A DNA stretch of 64,000 nt from a bacterium (GTDB lineage Bacteria > Oederibacteriota > Muellerivitia > Muellerivitales > Muellerivitaceae), in contig DASZRK010000049.1 in assembly GCA_035549195.1 (NCBI GenBank), forward strand, positions 1 to 64,000. Direction: 5' to 3'. Below, piece by piece: positions 26,621-62,260 of this stretch. Each line of letters starts with the position of its first letter. Position 1 is the first letter of the stretch. Under the pieces are notes generated by a model. It made no database searches. It was not told the origin of the DNA and saw nothing but the letters and a program-made list of their open reading frames with translations. The position numbers and the translations under genes were made by a program.

Positions 26621-26746
26621 GGTTTGTCCCCTGAGCAGAGGTGGGATGACTAGTTGTAAAAAACCCCGAAATATTACCGCAAAATGAAAAACGGGCCTAG
26701 AAGAAAGAATTTATCCCCGGATATAAAAGCGGGACTTAACGGCCGT

Positions 26747-53002: not shown

Positions 53003-56000
53003 CTAAAGGTTCAAACTGATCCCACCCGAGAGATCTTGCGAATCGAAGTTCGTCACGCCCAACACCCCCTGGTATCCCAACTGGACCGCCAAACCCTTCC
53101 CCAAGCCCATCCGCAAACCCGCCGAGACCAGGAACCCGTCCCTGCCCAAAGCGGGCCCGTCCACCACGAACCGGTTGGAGGAACCTGCCAAGGACGCCGT
53201 GACTTGGTCCAGGTTCCCCTGATAAACGTGTTGCCAAGTGGCCATGAGGGCGGGTTCCAGGAACCAACCGCCACCCATCGGGAAATTCCTTTTGGCTTGC
53301 AATCCCAACTCGCTCGCCAGTTCGTCCTGTCCCTGGGCCGGTAGATTCAAGGGTCCGAAGGACCCGGTCTCGGTGAAGCCATCGACCTGCACATGGGTGA
53401 AGCTTCCCGCCGCCAGGGGCCCCCACTTCGAACCATCCAGGTCCCAATCCAGGTTCCCGCCCAGTTTCAAGCCGAACTGCATCCCTCGGGCCGTACCCGT
53501 CGCCATCCCACCTTCACCGGCACGGACCGTGTCATAATTATTGATGCCGCCATCCAGGAGCCCGGCGATCCTCAGGTCCCCCGAGCGCCAGCCGCCATAG
53601 ACCCCCACCTGGCCCCCGGAGGCTTTCACCGAATCCAGGGCCTGGGAGGTGCCCGATTGGCTGTAGCCGACCAGCAAACCTCCGACCAGGTCCCGGTCCA
53701 TCCGGTCGTCCAACCCGACGGCCACGCCGCCGGTCGAGAATTGGTACCCCGGGCCGTTCCCGTCGCCGGTGACGGTCCCGAAGTTCCCCAAACCCTGGGC
53801 GAAGACCCCGGTCGCCCTCGGGGCGGTCCCGGTCATGGCCTGTTCCCCGCTCCCGTCCATGGCCGCGGCAAACATCCTGCCGTTCCAGGCCGCCTGGACC
53901 CTGGGGCTGGCGTCCAACTTCTCCCAAAGGGAAGCGATCCGGTCGAAGGCCATCCGGCCACGTGCCTGGGCCAGATCGTATCCCATGCGGAAAATGGGCG
54001 TAAGACCGGCGGGCGACACCCGGTCATAGGCCGCCGGCACGTTCCCGGCATTCATGGTCCCCAGGTCCGCCATCAGGTCCTGTTGGCCGGACTCGAAGAC
54101 CGAGGCATCCAGGGCCGCCGCCACCGCCTTTTGGTTCAAGGTCAGGGCGAGGGCCAGGAAGGAGGGCCGGATGGCCACCAGGTCCACCTCATGGGTGCCA
54201 TAGACCGGCAAGAACCGGAAACCCGCGATGGAACTGATGGAATCGGAAAAGCTCCCCGAAACGAGACCGGCGGTCTCGAAAATGCGGAAGGAATCCCCCA
54301 AAACCGGGGTGAAGGCGGCAACGGACAAGATCGAAACGGACCCGCCCATTTGGGCGTCTCCGGTGACATTGAACCTATCCCATTGGCCCGCCGAGGTCCC
54401 CGCGAGGCCCAGTTGCAGGGTCCCGCCGGTCTGTTGGTAGGAACCCCCGACGTTCACGGTGATGGGTCCCCCGCTCGTGGCCATGGTTCCTCCGGTGAAG
54501 GACACTGAACAGCCTCCCAGAGCGCCCGAGGAAGCCAAGAGCAATTGTCCACCGGTCAATTGGGTACTACCGGTGAAATTGTTCGTCCCAGAAAGGGTCA
54601 AGGTTCCCGTGCCCGACTTGACCAGTGAACCCCCGGCCCCGGTGACCACTCCAGCGATGGAGGAAGAAAGATTCCCGCCGAAGACCAGCCTATTCCCGCC
54701 CAATTGCACGGCACTTCCTGCCAGGGAGTTCAAATAGGTCACGGTCAAAGCCGAGGATGTCTCGCCCGAAATATCGAGGACCCCGCCGCTATTGAGCGTG
54801 AACTGGGCCGTTCCCGCCACGGCGTTCCCGGCAAAATTAAGGGTCGAAGAATTCTCCACCGTGATCCGGCTGTCCCCCGCCGTGGAGAAATCCCCGAACT
54901 GGACGATGTTCATGTCATCGATATGGGCGTTCCCGGCGCTGGCCAGGGTCGTGGCCGAGGCACCCTGGAAATAAACGGCGCCCGTATTGCTGATGGCCGC
55001 GTTGGCGGCGCTGGCCCCATCATTGAAGTTCAACAACCCGCTGTTGCTCACCCCCGCGTTGGCCGCGGTCGAATCCCCGTTGAAGTTCAGGGTCCCGGAG
55101 TTGTAGAGGACCGCCGACACCGCCGAAGCCGAGTTGTTGAAAGCCAGGATACTACTATTGCTGATCACCGCCGTACCCGCCGTGGCATCATCCTGGAAGG
55201 AAAGGGTCCCGCTGTTGACCACATAGCTGACCGCCATCGAGTCCAGGGCGTAGGTCAGGGTCGCCTGGTTGCTGACCGGGCCCGAACCCAGGCTCCCGCC
55301 GTCCACCACAACGGTCCCCCCAAAAATGGTGGTCCCTCCGCTATAAAGATTGTCCCCGGAAAGGATCATCAGCCCGGGTCCGTTCTTGATCAACGAGCCG
55401 GCGCCCGAGATCACCCCGCTATAGGAGGTCGAAAGGTTGTTCCCCCCGGTCGTGAGGTTCTTGGTCCCCAAATTGACATTCCCGCCGCCGGCCAGGGACC
55501 CCAAGGTCACCCCCACCGTGCTTTGGCTGATGTCCAGGTCGGCGCCCGTTGCCAGATCGAGTTGGGCCAGTCCCCCATCGGCCCCGCCCGAGAAACTGAC
55601 CGAGCCGCCGCTTTGGGCCAGGATGGTGACGCTCCCCGCCGTGGAACTCCCGGTGAAGATCAACCGGCCGTAGTCGGCGATCGTCCCGATCCCCGCCGAA
55701 GAAGTATCCTGGAAACGCAGGGTGGCGCCTGCCGAATTGAGCAAAAGGACGCTGACCGCTTGGGCGCCGTTCTCAAAGAGGAAAAGCCCGCCGGTGGCGA
55801 TAAGGGTCTGGGCTTGTCCGGAAGTGTTGTTGGCCCCAAGTCCGGCCAAAACAAAGGTCTGCCCGTTGTTGTAGATCGTGTAGGACGTGGAACCGTTGAA
55901 CTGGACATCCCCCACGGTGGTAGGCGCACTCATGGTGACACTGGCGTTGAGCGAAGTCCCGAAGGTGGCGGAAGCGCTGGTCCCGCTGGGAACGGTCGAC

Positions 56001-56131
56001 AGGTCCCAGTTGGAGCCCGAATCGAAATCCCCGCTGGGCGGGTTGTTCAACCAGGTCTCGCCCCAGCCTGGGGCCAAAAACCCAGCCCAAAGGGCGGCTA
56101 TCGCGAGGATCATTCTAAGGGAAGATGGCAT
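53003..56131 (-). CDS. Autotransporter (type Va) with beta-helix passenger
   Basis: This 1042-residue protein has three parts. Residues 1-24 are a signal peptide. Residues about 25-740 are a low-complexity Gly/Ser/Asn/Thr-rich beta-helix passenger with autotransporter-associated repeats such as GTGTLTLSGTNNFTGSTQL, and, near residues 300-395, five tandem 19-residue repeats of the pattern [S/T]GxLxFxxxxxAxxAxxxN. Residues about 790-1042 form an autotransporter beta-barrel with a terminal strand ending in Leu. The start is ATG 56131, chosen because AAGGGG lies upstream; upstream in-frame starts lack a signal peptide. It is secreted to the cell surface by the type V pathway; binding partner unknown. 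Its promoter is not obvious. Confidence 0.85.
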   Translation of the reverse strand: MPSSLRMILAIAALWAGFLAPGWGETWLNNPPSGDFDSGSNWDLSTVPSGTSASATFGTSLNASVTMSAPTTVGDVQFNGSTSYTIYNNGQTFVLAGLGANNTSGQAQTLIATGGLFLFENGAQAVSVLLLNSAGATLRFQDTSSAGIGTIADYGRLIFTGSSTAGSVTILAQSGGSVSFSGGADGGLAQLDLATGADLDISQSTVGVTLGSLAGGGNVNLGTKNLTTGGNNLSTSYSGVISGAGSLIKNGPGLMILSGDNLYSGGTTIFGGTVVVDGGSLGSGPVSNQATLTYALDSMAVSYVVNSGTLSFQDDATAGTAVISNSSILAFNNSASAVSAVLYNSGTLNFNGDSTAANAGVSNSGLLNFNDGASAANAAISNTGAVYFQGASATTLASAGNAHIDDMNIVQFGDFSTAGDSRITVENSSTLNFAGNAVAGTAQFTLNSGGVLDISGETSSALTVTYLNSLAGSAVQLGGNRLVFGGNLSSSIAGVVTGAGGSLVKSGTGTLTLSGTNNFTGSTQLTGGQLLLASSGALGGCSVSFTGGTMATSGGPITVNVGGSYQQTGGTLQLGLAGTSAGQWDRFNVTGDAQMGGSVSILSVAAFTPVLGDSFRIFETAGLVSGSFSDSISSIAGFRFLPVYGTHEVDLVAIRPSFLALALTLNQKAVAAALDASVFESGQQDLMADLGTMNAGNVPAAYDRVSPAGLTPIFRMGYDLAQARGRMAFDRIASLWEKLDASPRVQAAWNGRMFAAAMDGSGEQAMTGTAPRATGVFAQGLGNFGTVTGDGNGPGYQFSTGGVAVGLDDRMDRDLVGGLLVGYSQSGTSQALDSVKASGGQVGVYGGWRSGDLRIAGLLDGGINNYDTVRAGEGGMATGTARGMQFGLKLGGNLDWDLDGSKWGPLAAGSFTHVQVDGFTETGSFGPLNLPAQGQDELASELGLQAKRNFPMGGGWFLEPALMATWQHVYQGNLDQVTASLAGSSNRFVVDGPALGRDGFLVSAGLRMGLGKGLAVQLGYQGVLGVTNFDSQDLSGGISLNL

Positions 56132-56903: not shown

Positions 56904-57473
56904 CTATTGGGCCACGATGTCCTTGACGTTCACGATCGCGGTCCCGACGGTCTTGGGCGTCAGGCCGAAGGTGCTGACCTTGCTGAAGTCCTTGGCCGCG
57001 CCCTTGATGGCCTCGGGGGGCGTGTAATAGGGGTCCAACTTGAAGGAATCCAGCGGGACGGAGACCTTCTCCCAGGCCCCGCCCTTGACCGAAACCTCGG
57101 CCACGTATTGGTTCTTGTTCTTATCGGTCAGGGACATGCCCAGTACCACGGGCCCCTTGCTGTTCACCGAGAACTCAACGGTCTTCGAAGCCGTCAGGTC
57201 CACGCCCGCCCAGTCCACGCCTCCCGCCCGACACCAGAGCCCGCACCAGCCGCCCTGCACCAGGGTGTATTTCAGGGCGAGGGTGGTCTTGTCGCCCTTC
57301 CCGGCTTTCTCCAGGGCGATCTTGGAACCCTTGTCATCCTGGTAGGTCCCGATGTCCTTCGAGGTTTTGGGGTCCACGCTGGAAAAATCCTGGATCACAA
57401 CCGGTGCGTTCGCCTTGGCCACGCCCACCGCCAGGGACAGGCCCAACACCATGGCATTCATCCACTTTTTCAT
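56904..57473 (-). CDS. Secreted single-domain beta-sandwich protein (carbohydrate-binding-like)
   Basis: This 189-residue protein has a signal peptide (residues 1-23, ending VAKANA) and one domain that closely matches the second domain of the next gene: GGWCGLWCRAG, D(W/L)T-SK-V, MSLTDKNKNQYVAE, WEKVSVPLDSFKLDPYYTPPEA-KG. The pattern resembles galactose-binding-like CBM11/CIA30 beta-sandwiches, though I cannot confirm the family. It is transcribed from its own promoter, one of the four ECF-type motifs. The extracellular location and regulation fit glycan binding. Confidence 0.8.
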   Translation of the reverse strand: MKKWMNAMVLGLSLAVGVAKANAPVVIQDFSSVDPKTSKDIGTYQDDKGSKIALEKAGKGDKTTLALKYTLVQGGWCGLWCRAGGVDWAGVDLTASKTVEFSVNSKGPVVLGMSLTDKNKNQYVAEVSVKGGAWEKVSVPLDSFKLDPYYTPPEAIKGAAKDFSKVSTFGLTPKTVGTAIVNVKDIVAQ

Positions 57474-57514: not shown

Positions 57515-57543
57515 ATTAGACGCGAGGTCCTGAAAAAGTGTCG
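57515..57543 (-). promoter_or_regulatory. ECF-type promoter, beta-sandwich gene 1
   Basis: On the minus strand CGACACTT (57543-57536), 12 bp, then GCGTCTAAT (57523-57515). Spacing is identical to the three other copies in this region. The ATG is about 42 nt downstream. Confidence 0.85.
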
Positions 57544-57664
57544 GCCAATGAATGAATGTGAGCAGGGATGGACCTTGATGAACCCGGACAAAATCTTCGG
57601 TCCTTGCGCCGCCCATCCCATTCATCCGGTTCATCCCCGTTCCAGAAAAATTGGATCGGTTGTC

Positions 57665-58738
57665 TTATTTTTCGACCGTGATCCGGCGCACCTTGAACTC
57701 ATGTTTTCCTTCGGTCAAGGGGGCGATATTGAGGGTTTCCACATGGACTAGGTCCTGGACCGATCCCTTCTTGGCCTCCGGGGGCTGGTAATAAGGGTTC
57801 AGGTGGAATTCACCGAACGGCACCGCCAGTCTCTCCCAGCCCTTACCCCGGGTTTCCCGGGTCTCAGCGACGAAAGCGTTCTGGTTCCCATCATTGAAGC
57901 CCATCTGGAAACGGACGGGTTCGGAGCTGAACACCTCCAATGTCATGGACTTGGCGCCGGTCCAGTCCTGGCCACCCCAGGCATCGCCAGCGCGCATCCA
58001 GAAGCCGCACCAGCCGCCGCGTTTGAGGTCGCAGTGGAACAGCGCCAGGCGCCCACCTTCCGCGTCCTTTTCAAGGCTCAGGTCGATCGAAGTTCCCGTC
58101 TTGCCGTCCACGAAGGGACCATAGGCGGTCTTGTCGAGGAAGAGGAAGTCCTGCACTGTCACGCGATCCTTCTCCTCCCGGCCGCCCGTTTGGGGTCTCT
58201 GCTTCCCCACAACGAAAGAAACGGGCCCGACCTGCAGGTCCAGGTCCCCGTGGGTCTGGGGAAGCCACTGCAGGCTCACGATCCTGGTCCAGTCGATGGG
58301 TTTGTCCTTGGGCGCCTCCGGCATTTGGAAGGCGGCTTTCTCGAAGAGGGACAAGGGGATCGTGAATACCCGCCACCCCCCGCTGGTGATCCGGAAAACC
58401 GCTGTGTACTGGATGTTCCTGGCATCCATCAATCCGACCTCGACCAATTCGGGTTCCGGCGACTTGGCCTGGAACCGCAGGGCCCCTTCCTTGGAAAGGT
58501 CGCCGTTGAAGGTGGCCCAGGCCCCCGCCCAACCCACGATATGGGCCTTCACCACCAAGGCCTTCTCGCCCGGGCGAGGCCCTTCGGCGCTCCCCAGGGC
58601 GATGGTGGAACCGTCCTTGTCGGCGAAGGTCCCGGCGAACCCGGGCCCCAACTGTTTCCAATCCTGCGTCACGGCCATTGCGCAGGACGCCGCCATCCAG
58701 CAGCCCAGCGCCACGGCCCACCCGATCCCCTTTTTCAT
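57665..58738 (-). CDS. Secreted two-domain beta-sandwich protein
   Basis: This 357-residue protein has a signal peptide (1-23, ending CAMA) and two related beta-sandwich domains. Domain A covers about 25-180 and shows only a weakened form of the motif (GWAGAWATFNGDLSKEG). Domain B covers about 195-357 and is close to the single-domain paralogue, with RGGWCGFWMRAG, GQDWTGAKSM, NQNAFVAE and LNPYYQPPEAKKG. Start ATG 58738 has a GGAG site. Carbohydrate binding of the CBM11/CIA30 type is the best guess. It has its own ECF-type promoter. Confidence 0.8.
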   Translation of the reverse strand: MKKGIGWAVALGCWMAASCAMAVTQDWKQLGPGFAGTFADKDGSTIALGSAEGPRPGEKALVVKAHIVGWAGAWATFNGDLSKEGALRFQAKSPEPELVEVGLMDARNIQYTAVFRITSGGWRVFTIPLSLFEKAAFQMPEAPKDKPIDWTRIVSLQWLPQTHGDLDLQVGPVSFVVGKQRPQTGGREEKDRVTVQDFLFLDKTAYGPFVDGKTGTSIDLSLEKDAEGGRLALFHCDLKRGGWCGFWMRAGDAWGGQDWTGAKSMTLEVFSSEPVRFQMGFNDGNQNAFVAETRETRGKGWERLAVPFGEFHLNPYYQPPEAKKGSVQDLVHVETLNIAPLTEGKHEFKVRRITVEK

Positions 58739-58766
58739 GGTCTCCGCTCCCTTCCGAAATACCCGC

Positions 58767-58795
58767 ATTGGACGTTCCCCCGTCCTCAAGTGTCG
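58767..58795 (-). promoter_or_regulatory. ECF-type promoter, two-domain beta-sandwich gene
   Basis: On the minus strand CGACACTT (58795-58788), 12 bp, then ACGTCCAAT (58775-58767). The predicted transcript start lies about 20 nt before the ATG. The sequence overlaps the region just after the Spy-like gene stop. Confidence 0.85.
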
Positions 58796-58803
58796 GCTTC
58801 TTC

Positions 58804-59211
58804 TCACCGTCGGCCCGGACCAATGGCCAGGGCCGTCGGATCGGCGTTACTGGTCCAAAGGAACCGGTCCATCCGCCCGTGGATCTTGTCGTGCGCCTTC
58901 ACGTAAAGGTCCATCTGCGCGGGCGTCAGGATGCCTGCCAGGCGGTCCTCCCCCTGCCGGTCCAGGGTCTCCACCTCGTAGCGCCATTGCTTGCGCAGCG
59001 CCTCCATCCGATCCTTCTGGTCGGCGAGGATGTCGGCCGCCTTCTCCCGTTGGTCGGGGGTGAGGTTCAGGTCCCCCGCCAGTTGGAGGATGAACCGATC
59101 CGCCGGGCTCCAGGCCCGCAGCGTGTGGTCGAAATAGAAGCGCATGGCCCAGGCCCCGGCCGCCAAACCCAAGACAACGCCTAAGATCGTGAAAAAGACC
59201 GGCTTACTCAT
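58804..59211 (-). CDS. Spy/CpxP-like periplasmic or membrane-anchored protein
   Basis: This 135-residue protein has one N-terminal hydrophobic segment (residues 5-24) and a helical domain with the LTPDQREKAADIL and LTPAQ motifs typical of the Spy/CpxP/ZraP family of envelope-stress chaperones and sensors. ATG 59211 has a GGAGGG site and overlaps the anti-sigma gene by 8 nt. It probably works with the sigma/anti-sigma pair as a stress or substrate sensor, by analogy with CpxP-like regulators; not proven. Confidence 0.78.
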   Translation of the reverse strand: MSKPVFFTILGVVLGLAAGAWAMRFYFDHTLRAWSPADRFILQLAGDLNLTPDQREKAADILADQKDRMEALRKQWRYEVETLDRQGEDRLAGILTPAQMDLYVKAHDKIHGRMDRFLWTSNADPTALAIGPGRR

Positions 59212-59581
59212 AAGAGCCCTCCTTCCAGATGACTGTCGCGCTGGGAACATGGTCGAACCGGCTGAAGTATTTGTCCTCTTCCAACCACTTGCGCTCCGGG
59301 TGCCAGAAGGCCGCGAGCACCAAAAGAACGGCCGCCAAGCCCGTCGCCAAGGAGGCGAAGCCCCAACCCGGGACTAGGCCCTTCTCCGGCTCCCGGACCG
59401 GGATGCGCGCCATGACGCGCCCTGTGAAGCCTTCCCGGGGCTTCGCCTCGGGCCATTTCGCGAGCAGTTCCCGGCAGGCCGGGCAACCCTTGAGGTGGCT
59501 TTCCATCCCCTTCTTTTCGGCCGGGGACAACCTCCCCCGCCGCCAGGCATCCGCCTGGGCCAGTATTTGCGAGTGCGTCAT
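59204..59581 (-). CDS. Anti-sigma factor with zinc-binding (zf-HC2) domain
   Basis: This 125-residue protein has an N-terminal zinc-binding anti-sigma domain (His29, Cys33, Cys36 in SHLKGCPACRELL), one transmembrane helix (about 75-93) and a short extracytoplasmic tail. This is the typical build of a membrane-bound anti-ECF factor. Its ATG lies one base after the sigma stop, so the two are co-translated at matched levels. It would hold the sigma factor until an envelope signal is sensed. Confidence 0.9.
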   Translation of the reverse strand: MTHSQILAQADAWRRGRLSPAEKKGMESHLKGCPACRELLAKWPEAKPREGFTGRVMARIPVREPEKGLVPGWGFASLATGLAAVLLVLAAFWHPERKWLEEDKYFSRFDHVPSATVIWKEGSYE

Positions 59582-59582
59582 G

Positions 59583-60170
59583 TCACATCCCCCCTTCGTC
59601 GTCGGCGGGCCCTTTGAGGAACCGCCGCAGTTTGATCCGCGCCCTTTTCAGGCGCCCCTTCACCCCATCCAGCGACAACCCCAACCGCCGCCCCATCTCC
59701 TCGTAACTCATGTCGTACTTCTCCTCGACCAAGCGAAGAACGTCCTTCTCCCCCTCGGTCAAGACCTCCAGCATGGCCGCGGTGACCCGGGGCAATTCCC
59801 GTGGCCCTTCTTCCGAGGACCGTTCATCGGACAGGGGCCACCCCTGCTCCAGCAGGGTCTCCAGGGAGAGGAACCTCCGGTTCTTCCGTTTGCGAAGGAT
59901 ATCCTTGCAGTGGTTCAGACCGATCCGCACCACCCAGGTTCGAAAGGAAGAATGACCCTTGAAGTTGGAAAGGCTCCGGTAGGCCTTGATGAGCACCTCT
60001 TGGGCGGCCTCCTCGGCCTGGTGCGGATCCCGTAGCAGGGCCAGGCAAAGTTGGTAGAGGTAGGTGCCATGACGGTCCACCAGTTCGGCGTAGAGGTCCC
60101 TATTCCCCGAGAGGATGTGACGGATCAGGTCCGATTCTTCGATGACCGCCCTCCCTCCGGAAATGGACAT
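59583..60170 (-). CDS. ECF RNA polymerase sigma factor
   Basis: This 195-residue sigma-70 family factor has region 2 (about 20-95, LYAELVDRHGTYLYQLCLALLR, AEEAAQEVLIKAYRSL) and region 4 (about 130-185, TEGEKDVLRLVEEKYDMSYEEMGRRLGLSLDGVKGRLKRAR), separated by a flexible linker; regions 1 and 3 are missing. ATG 60170 has a GGGAG site, and the conserved promoter motif lies upstream of it; start codons further upstream would fall before or inside that promoter. It is encoded immediately upstream of its anti-sigma factor. The promoter in front of it is one of the set, so it is expected to activate its own operon. Confidence 0.93.
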   Translation of the reverse strand: MSISGGRAVIEESDLIRHILSGNRDLYAELVDRHGTYLYQLCLALLRDPHQAEEAAQEVLIKAYRSLSNFKGHSSFRTWVVRIGLNHCKDILRKRKNRRFLSLETLLEQGWPLSDERSSEEGPRELPRVTAAMLEVLTEGEKDVLRLVEEKYDMSYEEMGRRLGLSLDGVKGRLKRARIKLRRFLKGPADDEGGM

Positions 60171-60218
60171 CAGGATCTCCCAGTATATCGCCCCCGTCCG
60201 GCCGGAATTTCCCGCCGA

Positions 60219-60247
60219 ATTGGACGTCGGCACCGGGAAAAGTGTCG
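60219..60247 (-). promoter_or_regulatory. ECF-type promoter of the sigma operon
   Basis: On the minus strand CGACACTT (60247-60240), 12 bp, then ACGTCCAAT (60227-60219). It lies back to back with the GH9 promoter, so the two -35 elements form an inverted repeat (AAAGTGTCG at 60239-60247 and CGACACTTT at 60265-60273). Confidence 0.88.
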
Positions 60248-60264
60248 AAAATAAGCCGTTGGGG

Positions 60265-60293
60265 CGACACTTTCGGGAAGGCTAGCGTCGAAT
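60265..60293 (+). promoter_or_regulatory. ECF-type promoter of the GH9 gene
   Basis: CGACACTT (60265-60272), 12 bp, then GCGTCGAAT (60285-60293). The transcript would start near 60299, leaving about 27 nt before the TTG start of GH9, which has its own GGGAGG site. Confidence 0.88.
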
Positions 60294-60325: not shown

Positions 60326-62260
60326 TTGGACCGTTATTCACCTTGGGGTTTCGTCGTTTTCGCGTTGTTAGCTTCCGGAGGATCCTGGGCCGGGACCTCC
60401 CCCGTTAAAGGCGACATCAAGACCGACCATTTTGGGTACAGGCCCGGTGACACCAAGATCGCCTGCTTCACGGCCGACCCGGGCAAGCAGGTGGAAGTGC
60501 GTGACGCCCGTACCAACACCCTGGTCTTTTCCACCGGTACCATCACGGACAAGGGGACCGATGCCTCCACCCCGCCGATGTCCGGGGACCATGTCTGGTG
60601 GGTGGATTTCTCGGGCCTCACCCGACCCGGCACCTACCGCCTTCATTCCCCTTCCTTGGCGGAAAGTTCCTATGACTTCCGTGTTTCGGATTCCGTCTAT
60701 CAGGGGCCCATGACCGCTTCCCTGAAGTGCCTCTACTACCAACGCTGCGGCACGCCCAAGACCAAGGCCTCGGGGGGCGTCTGGAACGATCCCATTCCCT
60801 GCCACCTCACCGACGCGGCCTGTACCGCCTTCTGCAGCGGCGCCCCTCCCTACGGCGATATGCATTACGGCACCCTGGACCTTTCCGGCGGATGGCATGA
60901 CGCGGGCGACTACGAGAAAAAGATCGGCGCCGGCAAGGCCTGTGGCGTGGAGGAAACGGGCGACAACGGGGATGCCCTTTGGTACCTGCTGACCGCCTAC
61001 GAACTTAATCCCGGACTTTTCCCGCCCCACCAATTGGACCTCCCCGAATCGGGCGGCAACCTGCCGGATCTCCTGAACCAGGCCAAGTGGGAACTGGATT
61101 GGTACCTGAAAATGCAGCGGCCCGACGGCCATGTGCTGGAAGGTGTCCATGTGGCCAACCTGGGGACCCTCGCCTCCCCTCCATCGGCCGATACCACCGC
61201 CCGTGGCTACATGCCCCCCTGCTACGAGAGCGAGGCGGTGTTCGTCGCCGCCTGCGCCCACGCCGCGCGGGTCTTCGCTTCCCTGCCCGGGAGCGCCGCC
61301 TACGCCGGTACCCTGAAGCGGGCGGCCCTCAGGACATGGAACGCCTGGGTGCTGAAGTCGCCCGATCTGGACCCTCAGGCCTACTCCTGGATGCCCTACA
61401 AGTCCTTCAAGCTATGGGCCGCGTCGGAAGTTTTCCGGATGGACCCTTCCCAGGGGGCGGCCCGGGACTACATCGACCATTCCACCGATTGGGATTCGGC
61501 TCAAGGCCAGCCGCCGCCCGGCTATGTGGGCTGGGCCTATTTCAACTACCTGCAGTCCCCCGGGGCCACGGTCTCGGTCACCCAGGCCATGGGTCATGCC
61601 CTCGGCCGCTTCGCGGATGACCTTTTCGCCCATGACGACCTCTACCGCTCCGGGATGGTGGATTGGATGTACAGTTGGGGCTCCAACCAGCACAAGGCGG
61701 ACGCGGCCTTCGAGCTCTATCTGGCCGGCCGGCTGGGAACGACCGGGTCCCACACCCCGGCCCAATGTCTCTCCCACGCCGAGGACTTCCTGCACTATTT
61801 CCACGGCCTGAACCCGCTCAACATGGTCTACCTGACCAACACGGAATCCATGGGCGCCAAACATTGCCTCTGGCATGTCTTCCTCGTCTGGTTCGGGTCC
61901 TATTCCAACCCCGAGTGCCGTTCCAAGTTCATCGGCAAGCCCGCCTCGGTGGCCGATCCCCTCTACCCCTACGTCCCCACCGACAACGAGACATCCATTG
62001 ACGGTCCACCCCCCGGCTACATGCCCTGCGGCCCCACCTACCAGTATTTCCAGTTGGGAGGAAAGGACGTACCACCGAATGACCCGGGGCCCGTCCAGGC
62101 CCCCTATGCCAAGGCCTACCGGGACTACAACCAAGGCAGCCAACCTTGGATCGTGAACGAAGCTGGCATCTCCACTGCGGCCGTTTACATGGCGCTGGCC
62201 TCGGTCTTTTCCGGTCCCACTCCCGCCGGGATCGCACCTATCCCGGGGAAAAAGCCTTGA
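60326..62260 (+). CDS. Secreted glycoside hydrolase family 9 (endoglucanase-type)
   Basis: This 644-residue enzyme would cut beta-1,4-glucans or related polysaccharides by inversion. I place the start at TTG 60326: GGGAGG lies just before it, and the promoter at 60265-60293 excludes the GTG at 60242. Residues 1-24 are a signal peptide. Residues about 30-115 form an N-terminal Ig-like domain (CelD_N type), beginning IKTDHFGYRPGDTKIA. The (alpha/alpha)6 catalytic domain follows, with DAGD at 192-195 supplying the catalytic base and Glu612 (NEAG) as probable acid. Late NPLNMVYLTN and GHALGRFADD segments are typical. It is one of the two arms of a divergent sigma-controlled pair. Confidence 0.93.
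   Translation: MDRYSPWGFVVFALLASGGSWAGTSPVKGDIKTDHFGYRPGDTKIACFTADPGKQVEVRDARTNTLVFSTGTITDKGTDASTPPMSGDHVWWVDFSGLTRPGTYRLHSPSLAESSYDFRVSDSVYQGPMTASLKCLYYQRCGTPKTKASGGVWNDPIPCHLTDAACTAFCSGAPPYGDMHYGTLDLSGGWHDAGDYEKKIGAGKACGVEETGDNGDALWYLLTAYELNPGLFPPHQLDLPESGGNLPDLLNQAKWELDWYLKMQRPDGHVLEGVHVANLGTLASPPSADTTARGYMPPCYESEAVFVAACAHAARVFASLPGSAAYAGTLKRAALRTWNAWVLKSPDLDPQAYSWMPYKSFKLWAASEVFRMDPSQGAARDYIDHSTDWDSAQGQPPPGYVGWAYFNYLQSPGATVSVTQAMGHALGRFADDLFAHDDLYRSGMVDWMYSWGSNQHKADAAFELYLAGRLGTTGSHTPAQCLSHAEDFLHYFHGLNPLNMVYLTNTESMGAKHCLWHVFLVWFGSYSNPECRSKFIGKPASVADPLYPYVPTDNETSIDGPPPGYMPCGPTYQYFQLGGKDVPPNDPGPVQAPYAKAYRDYNQGSQPWIVNEAGISTAAVYMALASVFSGPTPAGIAPIPGKKP

Follow-up and report, generated by a model that had tools for sequence, protein, structure and literature searches.

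Control of carbohydrate-active enzymes by sigma factors is established for ECF systems and for SigI (PMC10766802, PMC4711584, PMC6056542). For Bacteroidetes, ECF sigma/anti-sigma control of glycan use is described in the O-glycan loci of Bacteroides, in B. xylanisolvens and in Cytophaga hutchinsonii (PMC10766802). The locus described here resembles these systems in that an ECF sigma factor with a membrane anti-sigma would govern genes of glycan degradation. The Bacteroidetes systems have been described together with TonB-dependent SusC/D transporters, whereas here a zf-HC2 anti-sigma is accompanied by an LTxxQ-like third protein; Pfam matches for nine proteins encoded around the operon include neither a FecR-type anti-sigma nor TonB/SusCD components.

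The operon lies on the minus strand of the window, i.e. the whole 64,000-nucleotide stretch that was analysed. Its first gene (59583-60170) encodes a sigma factor of 195 aa, with Pfam matches to Sigma70_r2 (3.6e-16) and Sigma70_r4 (5.9e-8). Its membership in the ECF class (group 4) is seen in the presence of regions 2 and 4 only, both above cut-off, and in a TIGR02937 match above cut-off; among the best 25 NCBIfam matches, the superfamily model alone reached its cut-off. The closest solved chain is CnrH (4cxf). The adjoining gene (59204-59581, minus strand) encodes a 125-aa membrane anti-sigma with a zf-HC2 match above cut-off (4.9e-7), an HxxxCxxC motif and one hydrophobic span; the Hx3Cx2C finger and the position next to the sigma gene would fit the class I zinc-binding type. 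It overlaps by a few bases with the gene of a 135-aa membrane-anchored helical protein of LTxxQ/Metal_resist type (58804-59211, minus strand), which carries an N-terminal hydrophobic span and two LTPxQ motifs. Its Metal_resist assignment is weak (3.5e-4, below the curated cut-off), the predicted model is too poor for a fold search, and phmmer against the PDB retrieved no matches for it or for the tandem CBM11 protein described below. In G012, a genome of another family, a zf-HC2 finger, one span and an LTxxQ-like domain are joined in a single protein (L066:5004-5648, contig C156), and this fusion suggests that the anti-sigma and the LTxxQ protein act together.

The proteins termed "two-domain" and "single-domain" in the initial annotation are both secreted and carry two and one CBM11-like domains, respectively. 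The former (57665-58738, minus strand; 357 aa) has a Pfam CBM_11 match of 7.1e-15, and its predicted model (pLDDT 83) matches CtCBM11, a binder of mixed-linkage beta-glucan. The CBM_11 match of the latter (56904-57473, minus strand; 189 aa) is just below the curated cut-off (1.3e-5). On the other side of the operon, a plus-strand gene (60326-62260) encodes a secreted GH9 enzyme of 644 aa with a CelD_N Ig-like domain (Glyco_hydro_9, 2.6e-38), the presumed TTG start of which was placed by a GGGAGGG ribosome site. The window also contains an autotransporter with passenger repeats and a beta-domain at 53003-56131, which has no promoter site upstream. A second tandem CBM11-like secreted protein is encoded elsewhere in the host genome, G000 (L158:5036-6157, contig C75), flanked by housekeeping genes and devoid of a promoter site; counterparts of it are present in most same-family genomes.

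The initial annotation had described four copies of a two-part motif with identical spacing, and all four were recovered as exact matches at the positions and on the strands it had given. The predicted sigma promoters precede the sigma operon (60219-60247, minus strand; 48 bp from the end of the site to the sigma ATG), implying autoregulation, the GH9 gene (60265-60293, plus strand; 32 bp to the TTG start), the tandem CBM11-like gene (58767-58795, minus strand; 28 bp to the ATG) and the single CBM11-like gene (57515-57543, minus strand; 41 bp to the ATG). At up to three mismatches the window contains 5 matches; 100 shuffles gave 0.65 on average and at most 3. The additional match at 26730, with three mismatches, is not convincing.

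Across 15 sites from G000 and two relatives, G003 and G006, the consensus is NGACACTTt-N12-CGTCYAAT, with a total of 33.6 bits. In this larger set the leading purine of the proposed RCGTCNAAT element is not a rule, being found in 10/15 sites; the T following CACTT is usual (13/15). Since GACACTT and GTC are invariant while the spacers are unrelated, the sites are not merely copied DNA. The motif is non-palindromic, consists of two halves with a fixed spacer and is always oriented towards the gene, with 28-92 bp between the end of the site and the start codon. A CGTC -10 element is a feature of many ECF promoters.

For the genome-wide scan, the 3.2 Mb of G000 were searched by pattern scans for CGACACTT-N13-CGTCNAAT, which has 15 fixed positions. 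The pattern occurs exactly six times, once with a single mismatch and twice with two, against 0.004 exact occurrences expected under an independent-base model. Its reversed control is absent when no more than one mismatch is allowed and occurs once when two are. All matches with at most one mismatch are intergenic rather than randomly placed inside genes, and they lie in the sense direction before the sigma operon or before secreted glycan-type genes. The two matches with two mismatches (C20:82026 and C56:4747) lie within coding frames and were rejected, as was C2:44107, which also falls in a coding frame. With spacers of 11-16 permitted, a single further match appears, located in a paralogous sigma gene at its 3' end.

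The remaining three sites lie beyond the window, 36-92 bp before genes for proteins with signal-peptide-like starts. These are a 796-aa GH51/44-like protein that carries an F5/8-C domain and resembles GH51 arabinofuranosidases (3e-9 against solved chains; site C50:37670), a 1035-aa GH5-like protein with weak similarity to GH5 mannanase (3.5e-4; site C61:20520), and a 248-aa CIA30/CBM11-like protein (site C20:52662). A weaker site, GACACTA-N13-CGTCTAA, is found at C55:11716, 36 bp before the gene of a secreted polysaccharide deacetylase (L167:600-2180) that also has a CIA30/CBM11-like domain, and this enzyme is a possible eighth member of the regulon.

The comparison covered 59 genomes, eight of them of the same family (G000 included). 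More than one site, at one mismatch or fewer, is present in three genomes alone: G000, G003 (six) and G006 (two). Their sigmas are also the family's closest orthologues, at 100%, 73% and 58% identity, respectively. In the five other same-family genomes sigma identity does not exceed about 40%, and none of them carries such sites. Taken as an independent test, the sites of G003 and G006 precede the sigma gene or secreted glycan-type genes in 8/8 cases: in G003 the sigma, a beta-helix protein, a tandem CBM11 protein, a GH9 enzyme and two further proteins that match F5/8-C and show weak GH44 and CIA30 similarity; in G006 the sigma and a GH12-CBM11 enzyme. The proposal that the target is a sigma factor commanding secreted glycan-active proteins is thus supported both by the genes downstream of the genome-wide sites and by the co-occurrence in relatives. 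The tandem CBM11 gene has its own site in G000, G003 and G018; in G006 and G012 it directly follows the operon and has none. No recognisable site was found upstream of the GH5-like orthologues (about 70% identical) in G001 and G002, which lack the sigma, and none was visible upstream of the GH5-like orthologue in the sigma-bearing G006. Isolated one-mismatch matches in G014, G030 and G031 (one each) lack a suitable downstream gene and fit chance.

In G018 and G012, members of other families, the sigma shares 53% and 45% identity, respectively, with that of the window, and upstream of each we find CGACACCGG...CGTCNAAT, spanning 31 bp versus 29 bp. This shifted form, CGACACC-N16-CGTCNAAT, precedes sigma, GH9 and CBM11 genes in the two families, and the distance from CGACAC to CGTC is 17 bp in it, as against 15 bp in the 29-bp form. 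At up to one mismatch it is found in G018 before the GH9 gene, where the mismatch sits in the -10 (TGTC), and before the tandem CBM11 gene, and in G012 before the single CBM11 gene. Because there are five such sites, and two-mismatch controls in G018 are nearly as many as the matches, the support for the 31-bp form comes from the identity of the downstream genes, as assessed for the matches other than G012:C183 and G018:C120. Matches in a long repetitive open frame (G012:C83) and in a conserved peroxiredoxin-like frame (G003:C284 and G006:C135) were rejected, and inspection by eye revealed no convincing site for the G012 GH44-like gene that diverges from the sigma. Altogether, the sigma gene is preceded by the site or its shifted form in five genomes (G000, G003, G006, G018 and G012). 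Our guess is that the 29-bp form derives from the 31-bp spacing.

What the sequence itself shows is that the sites exist, how rare they are and where they lie, that they co-occur with the sigma, how the operon is laid out and that the fusion is present in G012. From this we infer, with a probability of roughly 0.88, that the ECF sigma encoded at 59583-60170 reads the sites as its promoters and would command its own operon and secreted glycan genes. Presumably, the zinc-finger membrane anti-sigma keeps the sigma inactive until an outside signal is passed on by the LTxxQ/Metal_resist-like protein, the putative sensor, which would release the sigma from the anti-sigma. The free sigma would then bind the -35 GACACTT and the -10 CGTC, and turn on its own operon together with some six or seven other genes whose secreted products bind or cut glycans. 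The substrate is probably cellulose, mixed-linkage beta-glucan or xyloglucan. Either a glycan fragment or an envelope stress that goes along with growth on plant polymer could serve as the signal.

It is also conceivable, but in our estimation unlikely, that the promoters are real and serve mainly an envelope stress or metal response, with the glycan proteins as passengers. Proteins of the LTxxQ/Metal_resist type (Spy, CpxP, CnrX) sense stress or metals, the solved sigma closest to that of the window is CnrH, and a sister module in the same genome (L070:6186-12584, contig C2) comprises an ECF sigma, a zf-HC2-type anti-sigma, an LTxxQ protein, a TolC-type outer membrane protein and an RND pump. 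However, chaperone, protease and efflux genes are absent among the site-bearing genes, which, with the exception of the sigma operon and one beta-helix gene, encode carbohydrate-binding, hydrolase-like or deacetylase proteins. Moreover, a single histidine of the LTxxQ protein is invariant among four relatives, making a CnrX-like metal site less likely.

Recognition of the sites by a different ECF sigma of this genome, whether alongside the window sigma or in its place, seems very improbable to us. The genome has about ten ECF-type matches, the window sigma is tied to the sites by co-occurrence only, and inspection by eye points to a probable CGTC -10 for the sister efflux sigma as well. Nevertheless, the sister sigma is present in 8/8 same-family genomes, whereas multiple sites are confined to the three with a window-type sigma, and the site or its shifted form stands before this sigma in five genomes. 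We give equally little credence to the sites being operators of an ordinary DNA-binding regulator of glycan genes, as shared upstream motifs in general can be, since a split, non-palindromic motif with fixed spacer and CGTC -10, directed at the gene from 28-92 bp, lies before the sigma itself and follows its orthologue across genomes.

The sister module also bears on where the switch came from. Within the family, the sigmas of the nearest paralogous clade stand first in a conserved sigma/anti-sigma/LTxxQ set, and TolC and RND pump genes come next on every contig that is long enough. The LTxxQ families of the glycan and efflux modules are homologous (hhalign probability 98.7%), and in a tree built from best hits, hence with biased sampling, glycan and efflux sigmas fall into separate clades (99/97 and 100/100, respectively). 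In front of the sister sigma, GAAACAC-N17-CGTC is read by eye in three same-family genomes (L067, L068 and L160), with the same spacing as the 31-bp form. It is likely that GAAACAC-N17-CGTCTATACAG is the sister sigma promoter, sharing the CGTC -10 and differing in the -35. With the sister module standing at the head of a TolC/RND pump operon, the glycan genes have probably taken over an efflux-type switch; such reuse, with a presumed direction from efflux to glycan degradation, is the simplest reading. A fuller scenario, which we consider possible at somewhat less than even odds, is that a CnrHYX-like switch, with a sister in the same phylum at the head of an RND efflux operon, underwent duplication and came to command plant-glycan enzymes, that the LTxxQ protein, perhaps with the CBM11-like proteins, became a new polysaccharide-sensing input, and that the -35 and the spacing of the promoter changed between families.

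The closest counterparts differ from this arrangement in distinct ways. SigI/RsgI of Clostridium thermocellum is similar in that alternative sigmas command scattered cellulase genes upon sensing outside polysaccharide (PMC4711584, PMC6056542). RsgI has its own outside carbohydrate-sensing part, whereas the anti-sigma here, in which Pfam finds no RsgI-type sensing domain, has only a short outside tail, and the CBM11-like proteins are separate secreted proteins. CnrYXH of Cupriavidus metallidurans shares the combination of an ECF sigma and a membrane anti-sigma with a third, Metal_resist-type periplasmic protein, which here is a putative one. It differs in its anti-sigma, CnrY being class II (PMC7406223) as opposed to zf-HC2 here, in its His cluster, which does not seem to be conserved here, and in its targets, metal efflux there and glycan genes here; in role, the sister module is closer to it than the window operon. 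The CBM11 of C. thermocellum Lic26A-Cel5E (1v0a, 6r31) matches the one- and two-domain proteins by Pfam and fold, but the domains here are mostly free-standing without a catalytic domain and about 16% identical over the fold alignment. In a literature search based on titles and abstracts, with limited reach into subscription journals, we found no CnrX/LTxxQ-type module linked to glycan enzymes. The locus assigns a compact regulon to one sigma in an uncultured lineage without genetics, places free-standing CBM11-like proteins under the same control as GH5-like and GH44-like enzymes that are poorly annotated, and provides a natural example both of a promoter and a sigma that have changed in step across families and of an efflux-type signalling module that has probably been reused for plant polysaccharide sensing.
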